From positions 1 to 56,606 of the forward strand of contig NZ_JABSST010000007.1 of assembly GCF_013213975.1 (NCBI RefSeq): DNA of 56,606 nucleotides, in the 5' to 3' direction. Position numbers and translations under genes: made by a program. Shown piece by piece: positions 42,973 through 51,146 of this stretch. The notes under the pieces are model-generated. The model was given only the letters and a program-made list of their open reading frames with translations. It did not search any database and was not told where the DNA came from. Each line of letters begins with the position of its first letter. Position 1 is the stretch's first letter. Source of the stretch: Winogradskyella sp. (GTDB taxonomy: Bacteria; Bacteroidota; Bacteroidia; Flavobacteriales; Flavobacteriaceae).

Positions 42973-44460
42973 ATGAAATATTCTTACTTAATTTTATTAG
43001 TATTTATTTTGTGCCTTAGCTGTTCATCTGATAAAGATGAACCATTGAGTGGTGACAATTTCATTACTTCTTTTAAACTATTTTTAAATAATTCATCTGT
43101 CGAGGGTAATATAAATCAGTCTACTGGGGAAATTACTTTTGATGTTACCGGTGCAGATTTAAACAATTTGACACCAATAATTGTTCATTCTGAAAAATCT
43201 AATATCTCGCCGTCTTCAATTACACCTCAAAACTTTAATGATGTCGTAGTTTACAATGTTACTGCAGAAAATGGAGATGTGAAAACATACATTGTAAATG
43301 TAGAAAATAGACCTTTTAATACTGAAAGCGAAATATTATCCTTTTCTTTTGATATTTCAGGTCAAACATATAATTGTAATATTGACAATAATACAAATGT
43401 AATATTTCTCGAAACGGTAGGTTTAGATTTAACGTCTATAGCTCCTAGTATTACAATCTCAGAAAATGCTTCTATTTCTCCCTCACCGAGTATTCCTCAA
43501 AATTTTGGTGAGGTCATAACATATGTGGTAACAGCTGAAGATGGTACTTCATCTTCATATCAAGTGCAAATTGACAATAGACCTATAGGTACTGAGAGTA
43601 AAATACTATCTTTTTCCATAGAACATTTGGGTGTTAATTATGCAGGTATAATTAATGAACAAGAAAGTACGATTTCCATAAATTTAGCAAACATAGACAT
43701 CAGTTCATTAACTCCTGATATTATTATTTCTGATTATGCAACTATTTCACCTGAGGATACAATTGCGCAAGACTTTAATAATCATATAACTTATACAGTG
43801 ACTGCCGAAAATGGGGATTTTTCTACTTATACTGTTATTGCCAATGAAATAAAGATAAATGCAGTTTCACCGAGGTTCTCATTAAATTACATATATTATA
43901 CAGGTGCAGAGCTTAATGTTTTTGGTAATTATATTAATCCTGAAATCCCAGAGTCACAACTTATTCTTAGAGACGGTTCTACAGAATATTTAATAGAAAC
44001 TGTGAACTTAATAAGTGAAAATGTAGATTCAAATAACGCTAGTGTATATCAGATTTCATTTACAATTCCAGAAAATATACCAACATCAAATAATTATAGA
44101 TTGATTTATAGATTGGGAGATAATAATGGTGAATTTAATATTGATATTGATATCATGTCTGATGGACCAGAAAATATGACTATAAATCAAACCTCATACA
44201 ATTATAATGATGTGTTAATTGTAAACGGAATAAATTTAGTTCCTGGTCTTGTGGTGCCATCTAATGGGAATAATTATATTGTTGAAAATTCGAATAATTA
44301 CGATATAGAAGTAAACCCCGAAGGTACACAACTTACATGGACGCTAGATTTTTTCCAACATTTCCCCTCGTATTATGGCCAAGCTCCTCAATTGAAGAAA
44401 GTTTATACCCTAGGTCAAAATAGAAGAGTAGGGAAAGCCATATTTATAAATTTCAATTAA
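42973..44460 (+). CDS. Lipoprotein with three tandem beta repeats
   Basis: A 495-residue lipoprotein (signal CLSC, Cys17). Residues ~29-113, 118-203 and 208-292 are three copies of one ~90-residue beta domain; each contains SFxLF/SFSFxI, a LTPxIxxSExAxISPS strand and the closing YxVTAE(N/D)G (Tyr at 94, 184 and 275). This resembles DUF5018-type modules. The C-terminal ~200 residues have a TIG/IPT-like start (INAVSPRFSLNYIYYTGAELNVFG) and further strands. Asn-rich, with low GC and no Lys-rich region. A surface adhesin or binding protein is likely but unproven. Confidence 0.78.
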   Translation: MKYSYLILLVFILCLSCSSDKDEPLSGDNFITSFKLFLNNSSVEGNINQSTGEITFDVTGADLNNLTPIIVHSEKSNISPSSITPQNFNDVVVYNVTAENGDVKTYIVNVENRPFNTESEILSFSFDISGQTYNCNIDNNTNVIFLETVGLDLTSIAPSITISENASISPSPSIPQNFGEVITYVVTAEDGTSSSYQVQIDNRPIGTESKILSFSIEHLGVNYAGIINEQESTISINLANIDISSLTPDIIISDYATISPEDTIAQDFNNHITYTVTAENGDFSTYTVIANEIKINAVSPRFSLNYIYYTGAELNVFGNYINPEIPESQLILRDGSTEYLIETVNLISENVDSNNASVYQISFTIPENIPTSNNYRLIYRLGDNNGEFNIDIDIMSDGPENMTINQTSYNYNDVLIVNGINLVPGLVVPSNGNNYIVENSNNYDIEVNPEGTQLTWTLDFFQHFPSYYGQAPQLKKVYTLGQNRRVGKAIFINFN

Positions 44461-45812: not shown

Positions 45813-48023
<2,211 letters not shown>

Positions 48024-48049
48024 ACATTGGTAACTAGTAAACCAACATT

Positions 48050-48087
48050 AAAAAGGAATGTGCGTCTATTGTGCATTCCTTTTTTTA
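48050..48087 (+). terminator. Terminator between katG and the ankyrin gene
   Basis: Stem AAAAAGGAATG / CATTCCTTTTT (11 bp) with a 13-base loop, then T. It lies 27 bp after the katG stop and only 14 bp before the ankyrin start, so expression of the ankyrin gene may depend on read-through or its own promoter. Confidence 0.82.
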
Positions 48088-48100
48088 ATAGTACAACATA

Positions 48101-48571
48101 GTGAATGCACAAGAACTTTTTTTTAGGACAATACAAATTGGAAATAGTGATCATATAAAATCGCAATTGCAACATAATCCACATTTAGTAAATAGTGAAG
48201 ATGCTAGAGGATTTACACCTTTAATCTTTGCAACATATTTTGATAAAGTGGAAATTGCAATGATTTTATTAGATCATAATGCTGATGTAAATGGTAAGGA
48301 TGCTTCTGGAAATACTGCTTTAATTGGGGTGAGCTTTAAGGGGAATTTGAGCTTGGTGGAGTTATTAGTCAAACATGGAGCTGATATTAATGCACAAAAC
48401 AATAAAGGTGCAACAGCTTTGAGCTTTGCAGCACAATATAATCAAGAAGCTGTTGTGGGCTATTTATTAAATCATAATGCGGATAAATACATTGCAGATT
48501 CAGATGGTAAGACGGCACTTGACTTTGCCAAAGAAAAAGGATTCAAAAATATAGAGACTATGCTGTCTTAG
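48101..48571 (+). CDS. Ankyrin-repeat protein next to katG
   Basis: A 156-residue cytoplasmic protein made of four ankyrin repeats (about 35-65, 68-98, 101-131 and 134-156; typical units such as GFTPLIFATYFDKVEIAMILLDHNADVN and GNTALIGVSFKGNLSLVELLVKHGADIN). GTG 48101 is the likely start, since the nearby ATG is in another frame. Ankyrin proteins next to catalase genes are known: P. aeruginosa AnkB is needed for full KatB activity, and C. jejuni Cj1386 delivers haem to KatA. A similar helper role for KatG is inferred. Its end overlaps nhaC by 14 bp on the opposite strand. Confidence 0.88.
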   Translation: MNAQELFFRTIQIGNSDHIKSQLQHNPHLVNSEDARGFTPLIFATYFDKVEIAMILLDHNADVNGKDASGNTALIGVSFKGNLSLVELLVKHGADINAQNNKGATALSFAAQYNQEAVVGYLLNHNADKYIADSDGKTALDFAKEKGFKNIETMLS

Positions 48572-50036
48572 TTGCTGTACCTGTTAGCATTTTAATTTTA
48601 ATTCTTAGTGCTGCGAATAAAAGCGTTGTAAAAGGGCTTAGCCAATTAAAAATGGCATATAGGAAATATTCTCCTACTCCTACACCTAAAACACCACTTT
48701 GATAAGCGCCACAAGTATTCCAAGGAATAAGAACTGAGGTTACTGTTCCTGAATCTTCAAGTGTTCTACTCAAATTCTCTGGAGCTAATCCTTTATCGTC
48801 ATAGGCGTTTTTAAACATCTTGCCAGGTATAACAATTGCTAAATATTGGTCTGATGCAATAACATTTAAGCCTAAGCAACTTATTACTGTACTTGCAAAT
48901 AGACCAAAAACTGTTGTTGCTACTGATAGTAGAGCTTTAGTTATTCTTGCTAATGCACCAATACCATCCATTATCCCACCAAAAACCATAGCACAAATGA
49001 TTAAGAATATAGTCCATAGCATGCCTTCCATACCTCCAGAACTAAAAAGATCATTTAGTTTTTCGTTATCAGTGGTAATAGAGGTGTCTGATAAAATTGA
49101 ATTGGTTATTGCTGAAAGACTAGAATCCGATAAACCTTCAAGAATACTTGGTTGAAAAATAACGGCAAAGATTGCTGCTAAAATAACACCTGAAGCTAAA
49201 GCAACTAATGGTTTTGTTTTTAAAAGAATAAGTGCAATAACTGCTGCCGGAACTAGAAACAGCCAAGGAGTTATATTAAATGTTTTATCTATAGAAGCTA
49301 ATAAATTACTAATATCAGCATTGCCAGTTGGCTCCAAGGTAGCACTAATAATTCCGAATACTATTAGGGTCACAACAATCGTAGGTACGGTGGTAATTGC
49401 CATATACCGAATATGTGTAAATAAGTCTGTGCCAGCCATTGCTGGTGCTAAATTTGTAGTATCACTAAGTGGTGACATTTTATCTCCAAAATAAGCGCCA
49501 GAAATTACTGCACCTGCAATCATACCAGAATTAATGCCTAAGGCGGTTCCGATACCAACCAAAGCGATACCAACTGTAGCTGACGTGGTCCAAGAACTTC
49601 CAGTAGCTATAGAAATTACGGCAGCGATTATAACTGAAGCAGGTAGAAATATTTCTGGACTTAGCACTTGTAATCCGTAATACACCATCGCAGGAATAAC
49701 ACCGCTTATTAACCAAGTGCCAGCCAAGGCTCCAACAAGAAATAAAATCATAATTGGTGCAAAAACACTCTTTAGGTTTTCCCAAACCTCTTGAATCATA
49801 ACCAAAGGTGGTACTTTATTAAGCATACCGCCAATAAATGCAACGAATCCACCAATGAGTAAAATATATTGATTGGAATAATCACCCATCATGGCACCAT
49901 CAAATCTAAATATGTTTATGGCTAAAAGAATCATTAATATGACAACAGGAACCATAGACTCATAAATATTGAGCTCCTTATTGTTTATGATTTTTTGATC
50001 CGCTATTTTGATTTTAGATAGGTCGTCGTCTTGCAT
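48558..50036 (-). CDS. nhaC: Na+/H+ antiporter, NhaC family
   Basis: A 492-residue inner-membrane antiporter with about 11-12 hydrophobic helices that exports sodium in exchange for protons, fitting a marine life. Diagnostic NhaC segments: IATGSSWTTSATVGIALVGIG, ISGAYFGDKMSPLSDTTNLAPAMAGTDLFTHIRYM, and near the end NTCGAYQSGVLGV. The N-terminal ~25 residues are a charged cytoplasmic leader (DDDLSKIKIADQK). The gene is convergent with the ankyrin gene, and divergent from the decayed YdjM-like gene. Confidence 0.93.
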   Translation of the reverse strand: MQDDDLSKIKIADQKIINNKELNIYESMVPVVILMILLAINIFRFDGAMMGDYSNQYILLIGGFVAFIGGMLNKVPPLVMIQEVWENLKSVFAPIMILFLVGALAGTWLISGVIPAMVYYGLQVLSPEIFLPASVIIAAVISIATGSSWTTSATVGIALVGIGTALGINSGMIAGAVISGAYFGDKMSPLSDTTNLAPAMAGTDLFTHIRYMAITTVPTIVVTLIVFGIISATLEPTGNADISNLLASIDKTFNITPWLFLVPAAVIALILLKTKPLVALASGVILAAIFAVIFQPSILEGLSDSSLSAITNSILSDTSITTDNEKLNDLFSSGGMEGMLWTIFLIICAMVFGGIMDGIGALARITKALLSVATTVFGLFASTVISCLGLNVIASDQYLAIVIPGKMFKNAYDDKGLAPENLSRTLEDSGTVTSVLIPWNTCGAYQSGVLGVGVGEYFLYAIFNWLSPFTTLLFAALRIKIKMLTGTATKTA

Positions 50037-50121: not shown

Positions 50122-51146
50122 ATGGTTTCATTAACTCAAATCGTACTAGGTACTACATGTGATGAAGTGGTTTTAGGAAATAAAATAGATAATAAGGCTT
50201 TACTTTTCGGTACTATTGGAGGGACCATTCCAGATTTAGATGTTTTTATTGGTCCCTTGTTTTTTAAAAACGAAATTGACGCGATGCTCTTTGATAGGGG
50301 TTTTATGCACTCGATATTATTTGCTGTTCTGGGTGCGTTTCTGTTTGGTTGAGTAGTACATAAGCTTTATGATAGAAAAACATATCAATCCAACTAAGCG
50401 TAACGATTGGATATTATTGATCTTCTGAGCTTTATTTACGCATCCTATTCTAGATGCCTTTACTCCTTAAGGAACACAATTATTCGCTCCATTTTCAAAC
50501 TATCGCGTAGCGTTTAATAATATTGCTGTGGCTGATCCTTTATACACATCTCCTTTCCTCATTTGTTTAGTCATTCTTATGTTTTACACAAGAATGAAAA
50601 GTAAAAGACGTTTCTGGCTAAAACTTGGAATTGGTGTGAGTTCTATTTACATGTTATGTGCGCTATTCAATAAAGTTTATAAAGACAATGTGTTCAAAGA
50701 AACTTAGGCTAAAAAAACAAATCAATTATTTTAGATTTAGTACACAGCCAACAATATTAAACAACATTCTTCGGTATAGTATCGCAGAGACAGAGACTAA
50801 TTATCAGGTTGGGTTTTACTCTTTATTAGACAAACCCAACTGCTTTATCGATTGGAAAGTTAGTGCTAAACAGCGGTTCTTAAGGGCTAACAAACATGAA
50901 GATCTTAAATACTTAGTAGCATGGTTTAGTAATGGTTATTATAATGTAGAATCTTTAAATGCTTCGTAATTTATATATAAAGATTTACCTTATCCCTTAG
51001 TTCAAACACGAAATGGTGACAGAGCAATTTTTAATTTGAAGATATTTAAAGATCAAGAACGTTTAAATATGAAGCCCTTCACACCAAAAATGGATGACTT
51101 TGAATTTACACTGAAAGCTTTGTGGATTAGATTAAAGGGAAAATAA
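50122..51146 (+). pseudogene. Decayed YdjM-like membrane metal-dependent hydrolase
   Basis: Reading across frames restores one ~340-codon protein of the YdjM/DUF457 inner-membrane hydrolase family. Frame 1 (50122) gives VSLTQIVLG...GTIPDLDVF...MHSILFA and then TGA at 50350, in the place of a Trp (FLFG-stop-VVHKLYD). Near 50390 the frame shifts: NDWILLIF then TGA at 50426 and FTHPILDAFTP then TAA at 50468, followed by RVAFNNIAVADPLYT...FWLKLGIGVSS. Another shift near 50700 gives FSTQPTILNN...FSNGYYNVESLNAS then TAA at 50967, and the same frame runs on to IYKDLPYPL and a natural stop at 51144-51146. Four nonsense codons and two frameshifts leave no functional product. The 50658-50969 stretch is a fragment. 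Confidence 0.88.

Follow-up and report, generated by a model that had tools for sequence, protein, structure and literature searches.

In a Winogradskyella genome, a small gene for a protein with four ankyrin repeats directly follows katG, and the pairing of the two genes is widespread but patchy in related bacteria. The same ankyrin family also stands beside catalases unrelated to KatG. We consider it probable that the gene encodes a cytoplasmic, catalase-associated ankyrin protein, which would help KatG to become active, likely via haem, and which would be expressed by read-through from katG.

The katG-ankyrin locus and its conservation

The analysed stretch of DNA, here called the window, comprises positions 1-56606 (56,606 nucleotides) of one contig from a genome of 3.13 Mb with a completeness of 97%. 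The locus within it is composed as follows:

45819..48023, plus strand: katG, bifunctional catalase-peroxidase of 734 aa (TIGR00198 and NF011635 over cut-off; PF00141)
48050..48086, plus strand: hairpin with T-run, intrinsic-terminator-like (stem 48050-48084, T-run 48080-48086; from folding and covariation), taken as the katG terminator
48101..48571, plus strand: ankyrin-repeat gene with four repeats and a GTG start, 156 aa (Pfam), with Tyr46 and the GNTALIGVSFKG signature
48558..50036, minus strand: gene of the Na+/H+ antiporter family (PF03553), convergent, marker of neighbourhood 1

The sequence-only reading had described a four-repeat ankyrin gene 77 bp after a bifunctional KatG with a strong hairpin between them, and this was confirmed by the open reading frames, the Pfam and NCBIfam models and RNA folding. 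KatG scored 1124 bits with the NCBIfam model cat_per_HPI (cut-off 770), PF00141 matched in two stretches, corresponding to two peroxidase domains, and the motif RMAMND was read in the protein sequence. The ankyrin ORF, separated from katG by 77 nt, exceeded the cut-offs of the Pfam models Ank_2, Ank_4, Ank_5 and Ank. Its frame is closed 5' of the GTG at 48101 by a TAG at 48089-48091, and a crude hydrophobicity test detected no signal peptide in the protein. In an AlphaFold2 model with a mean pLDDT of 96.9 the helices are arranged in ankyrin order. At its 3' end the ankyrin ORF shares 14 nt (48558-48571) with the convergent antiporter ORF, so that either transcript probably continues into the other gene as antisense RNA. 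The hairpin model described below also gave a weak match on the minus strand (23.3 bits, E 1). Elsewhere in the window, a YdjM-like ORF of 76 aa (50122-50352, plus strand) looks interrupted; a gene similar to it, located 3' of the antiporter gene, encodes 339 and 367 aa in loci L118 and L124. Upstream of katG, positions 42973-44460 (plus strand) encode a protein of 495 aa with three stretches matching DUF5018.

For the survey of the family, 249 genomes were searched with a threshold of E 1e-15 for ankyrin homologues. Such a homologue was present in 118 genomes, KatG in 192 and a monofunctional catalase (PF00199) in 49. The ankyrin gene was found at 132 places, 109 of which were examined. At 48 of these, window included, katG is located directly 5' of the ankyrin gene and in the same direction (44 pairs from a coordinate join of the 132 places and four seen in fetched loci). 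Four further places have a divergent katG, nine ankyrin genes lie downstream of a monofunctional catalase, and at 48 places the ankyrin gene has no catalase beside it or none was seen there. In one genome (G019), katG and the ankyrin gene are both situated near contig ends and are probably paired as well. A catalase is encoded in 117 of the 118 ankyrin-positive genomes versus 95 of the 131 ankyrin-negative ones (Fisher p 2e-10, a value which ignores kinship and genome size).

Within the phylum, an ankyrin match was obtained in 65 of 395 genomes. Among 29 newly fetched loci, some of them from the family, four katG-ankyrin pairs lie outside the family (L134, L135, L139, L159), and in three loci outside it the ankyrin gene adjoins a monofunctional catalase (L146, L152, L161); two loci of this set showed weaker catalase matches (L155, L160). 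Among named genomes, the closest relatives of the ankyrin protein belong to Winogradskyella, and katG-ankyrin pairs were noted in W. luteola, W. flava and W. tangerina. The expectation of the sequence-only reading that the adjacency would be kept in related genomes was borne out by the 48 co-directional and four divergent pairs in the 249 family genomes and the four pairs beyond the family. As is characteristic of catalase-associated ankyrins, a small ankyrin-repeat protein is encoded beside a catalase across species.

No ankyrin match at E 1e-15 was detected in 82 of the 192 genomes with katG. These include G157, the only further genome that was examined from this genus, in which the two genes upstream of katG resemble those of the window and different genes come after katG. 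KatG therefore has no strict need of the ankyrin protein.

Catalase partners, compartments and signature residues

The ankyrin genes occur in two neighbourhoods. In neighbourhood 1, that of the window, the convergent antiporter gene comes next after katG and the ankyrin gene. Of the 30 katG-linked loci that lack a nitrilase-like gene, mostly covered with only ~1.5 kb of flank, eight showed the antiporter gene; in three loci (L118, L119, L124) it directly follows katG and the ankyrin gene is absent between them. Neighbourhood 2 is marked by a nudix and/or nitrilase-like gene (names given from the sequences, without searches) downstream of the ankyrin gene. Its slot before the ankyrin gene is occupied by a co-directional katG in 18 loci, a divergent katG in four (one of which shows only the nudix-like gene in its stretch) and a monofunctional catalase in two (L098, L103), and 28 loci have no catalase there. 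Unrelated catalases hence share one and the same place beside the ankyrin gene.

On the ankyrin tree, which comprises 109 of the 132 places, the context labels require 33 changes versus a mean of 53.1 after shuffling; the labels are clustered, yet proteins linked to katG, those linked to KatA and unlinked ones are intermingled. The KatG tree (91 rows) places four deeply divergent KatGs on a branch of their own with full support. An ankyrin gene downstream is also present in the members of this deep lineage (L018, L025, L027, L031), whose KatGs are ~54-57% identical to those of the window's group. Compared with L030, two deep-KatG loci show ankyrin identities of 76 and 79% and KatG identities of only 56 and 57%, the higher values being those of L031. 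Overall, ankyrin identity exceeds KatG identity in 31 of 1326 pairs. With the short ankyrin alignment, AU tests did not reject a single clade for the four partners of deep KatGs (p 0.28) and for the nine partners of KatA (p 0.15), and the number of partner switches is therefore uncertain.

Judged by the crude hydrophobicity test, the presence or absence of a signal peptide is the same for both partners in each of the nine KatA-ankyrin pairs, four of which have signal peptides on both proteins and five on neither. The four pairs with signal peptides form one clade on the ankyrin tree and may go back to a single event. Among the 48 katG-linked ankyrin proteins, a hydrophobic N-terminus was scored in two (L006, L090), which look like ORFs with over-long starts.

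Tyr46 is invariant in all 109 aligned ankyrin proteins of the family, and so are Asp67, Asn71, Gly76, Lys80 and Gly81; the pattern G-x-T-[AP]-L-x-G-x-x-F-K-G was found in 100 of them. An alignment of 11 sequences, including catalase neighbours from Sphingobium and Paraburkholderia, retains Tyr46 and F79-K80-G81 without exception. In the structural model, the first helices of two adjacent repeats end with Tyr46 and Lys80, respectively, and these residues may lie side by side. From 30 plasmid relatives listed (127 records), six were inspected, and in two of these, from Sphingobium and Paraburkholderia, a catalase adjoins a signature-bearing ankyrin gene. The Sphingobium plasmid combines the ankyrin gene with an HPII-like catalase (931 bits, model cut-off 1102) and a dps-family gene. 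This plasmid is conjugative, and within L237:1088-4522 it carries dps, the HPII-like catalase and the ankyrin gene, which overlaps the catalase end by 11 nt. In the inspected stretches of the other four relatives, from P. aeruginosa, Variovorax, Novosphingobium and Priestia, a catalase was not found; the signature is present in P. aeruginosa and Variovorax, nearly so in Novosphingobium and absent in Priestia. It is thus not exclusive to ankyrin proteins adjoining a catalase. A sequence search of the PDB yielded no named catalase partner among the best 60 of 429 matches, which were ankyrins, designed repeat proteins, tankyrases, latrotoxins and similar proteins.

The hairpin and the expression of the ankyrin gene

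The gap between katG and the ankyrin gene folds at -19.6 kcal/mol (z -3.7), a value equalled by none of 200 shuffles, with a stem of 15 pairs. A simple terminator scan of the window did not list this hairpin, and a search of positions 47900-48250 against Rfam gave no match at E values up to 1. Among 60 katG-ankyrin hairpins, 37 are of a type with the word GGRRT, and in an alignment of 29 of these 94.1% of the cells pair, with 76 double changes and a covariation score of 0.559 versus 0.280 for shuffled alignments. G-U pairs are frequent, which points to the sense RNA as the conserved molecule.

Hairpins of -12 kcal/mol or lower are present in 46 of the 48 katG-ankyrin gaps and in four of the nine regions after monofunctional catalases; none of the four loci with divergent katG has one, and they occur in three of 28 and three of 20 loci in the remaining contexts without a catalase beside the ankyrin gene. 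A hairpin also follows katG in 37 of the 39 cases in which the ankyrin gene is not adjacent (in 25 of these 39 genomes the ankyrin gene is encoded elsewhere, and one locus, L128, is truncated at the end of its contig). The hairpin is therefore best read as the terminator of katG, and with its stable sense-strand stem and T-run it has the form of an intrinsic terminator. For the same reason we found no support for the earlier suggestion that the hairpin sets the ankyrin protein at a fixed fraction of KatG; such a ratio is one possible consequence of the layout only.

Further interpretations of the hairpin were rejected. An element dedicated to the katG-ankyrin pair does not fit, as 50 of 60 family genomes contain matches to the covariance model, and 29 of the 37 match sites looked at lie at other genes. 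Nor is it a leader of the ankyrin gene itself, since the hairpin is rare upstream of ankyrin genes that have no catalase beside them or a divergent katG, and common after katGs alone. The word GGRRT, which was chosen post hoc, had at first favoured a dedicated element: of 60 katG-ankyrin hairpins, 37 have it in their 5' arm, compared with five of 39 other katG hairpins and one of 66 terminators of other genes. The GGRRT hairpin is a terminator type which is used elsewhere too. Hairpins of the same type were seen between rplQ-like and carA-like genes in L215, L222 and L235, and before a carA-like gene, after another gene, in L221 and L229. At the carA-like loci the distance from the hairpin to the next ORF varies.

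Measured downstream from the hairpin's outermost G-C pair, the ankyrin gene starts at a median distance of 21 nt, and within 30 nt in 42 of the 48 pairs versus three of 19 control gene pairs. The controls are pairs of genes in the same direction that are separated by a terminator, left after 11 katG-ankyrin rows had been removed by hand from 30 listed; two of the 19 consist of katG and another gene. Hairpins of the same type before other genes, e.g., carA-like ones, indicate that the layout is not unique. With an ankyrin gene starting ~21 nt behind the hairpin, read-through is the simplest source of its mRNA, and the arrangement of the sequence suggests that katG transcripts would read through the terminator into the ankyrin gene.

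A reading that we take seriously, although we lean against it, is that the two genes are transcribed separately: katG would end at its terminator, the ankyrin gene would have its own promoter in the 3' end of katG, and the genes would be neighbours and not one unit. With a median of -17.35 kcal/mol in the 48 pairs, the hairpin resembles a full terminator, and neither stem length (p 0.58) nor the number of T in 12 nt (p 0.39) distinguishes terminators before ankyrin genes from those of other katGs, which fits this reading. Against it, the ankyrin-linked terminators have fewer G-C pairs (median 4.5 vs 5, p 0.001) and poorer T-runs over 9 nt (median 7 vs 8, p 0.0002; both 48 vs 38 terminators and uncorrected for kinship). 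They are also slightly weaker in free energy (p 0.013, likewise uncorrected for kinship). Bacteroidetes promoters have a -7-like motif, TAnnTTTG. In a promoter test the motif was obtained in five of 48 versus 4.9 expected, which is chance level, and at the katG end the -7-like motif is no commoner in ankyrin-linked genes (19 of 48) than in others (14 of 39); it carries little information on this point. Unequal output of such gene pairs does occur, as in Burkholderia cenocepacia, where peroxide induced a catalase 5.7-fold and the neighbouring-numbered ankB 2.7-fold (PMC2830190).

Proposed role and relation to known catalase-ankyrin systems

Our best guess is that the ankyrin protein would bind haem, with the invariant Tyr46 and Phe79-Lys80-Gly81 as the candidate site, and would either hand it to apo-KatG or steady the haem-loaded enzyme. 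Because one family stands beside KatG and beside the unrelated KatA and HPII-like catalases, it probably recognises haem or a nascent haem enzyme and not one particular fold. The role of haem is proposed by analogy with Cj1386 of Campylobacter jejuni, and the invariance of Tyr46 is only suggestive in this respect. According to a review of that system, Cj1386 binds haem 1:1 via Tyr57, and the exchange Y57A cuts both activity and haem content of KatA (PMC11442138). Both are small ankyrin proteins tied to a catalase, in which a tyrosine matters (Tyr57 in Cj1386) or is invariant (Tyr46 here). In contrast to Cj1386 with its monofunctional KatA, the partner here is KatG, and a terminator lies between the genes.

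AnkB proteins have been assigned to KatB in Pseudomonas and to CatB in Xanthomonas, both of them monofunctional catalases, whereas the partner in the window is KatG. AnkB is described as required for or affecting catalase activity (PMC7567364, PMC10294975) and, unlike the window protein, which has no signal peptide, as periplasmic. The resemblance again consists in an ankyrin protein tied to a catalase, and the Paraburkholderia plasmid pair carries the signature of the window. In Leptospira interrogans, peroxide induces an ankyrin gene together with a catalase gene (ank-katE, PMC7567364); there, the ankyrin gene comes first, both genes form one operon and the catalase is the monofunctional KatE. 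From a comparison with family and plasmid sequences, the window protein probably represents the known catalase-associated kind, which would also serve KatG. The proposal of a helper of this kind beside KatG gains weight from the conserved adjacency and from the signature common to neighbours of monofunctional catalases. Relative to the known systems, KatG as the partner, the exchange of partners and the placing of the terminator are new, and in the open-licence literature, which omits most subscription journals, no publication describing such a partner for KatG was found. Tentatively, the view may be extended to one ankyrin family acting as a partner-independent haem-loading chaperone that would recognise haem itself with a pocket of the invariant Tyr and FKG; catalases of unrelated fold (KatG versus KatA and HPII) would be swapped freely beside it, and a leaky katG terminator just ahead of its start would set the ratio of helper to enzyme.

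Ankyrin repeats usually bind proteins. The ankyrin protein might therefore be an assembly or stability factor that is independent of haem and binds the catalase polypeptide, acting on folding, oligomer assembly or the substrate channel, and the match of compartments would fit this equally well. A role in keeping the enzyme in its proper conformation has also been proposed for ankyrin partners of catalases (PMC10294975). We nevertheless regard this explanation as rather unlikely, since KatG (PF00141) and the monofunctional catalases (PF00199) belong to different families, which makes one conserved surface less likely, and Tyr46, Lys80 and Gly81 remain constant whatever the partner. An improbable reading is that of a general adaptor in oxidative stress or redox control, which would be co-regulated with catalases and have other targets, the adjacency reflecting co-regulation only. 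It would account for the 28 neighbourhood 2 loci and most of the 20 other loci away from a catalase, for the many katG genomes without the ankyrin gene and for the signature-bearing plasmid proteins without an adjoining catalase; however, nearly all ankyrin-positive genomes still encode a catalase, different catalases occupy the same slot and the compartments match. That the genes are chance neighbours or persist by vertical inertia, without function, is hardly credible: the presence is patchy and ankyrin genes are common, but the order is kept in 48 family pairs, in two neighbourhoods and in pairs outside the family, with incongruent partners in some.

The haem-linked helper of KatG that we favour would bear on the route by which haem reaches cytoplasmic bacterial enzymes, which is largely open. 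According to a review from 2024, haem trafficking has been demonstrated for only a few proteins of the cytoplasm (PMC11442138). One helper family accompanying catalases whose folds are unrelated would allow models of enzyme recognition to be told apart from those of haem recognition, and the signature residues together with the natural partner swaps provide exact handles for testing both. KatG activates isoniazid in mycobacteria, and a maturation factor of KatG would for this reason be of wider interest.
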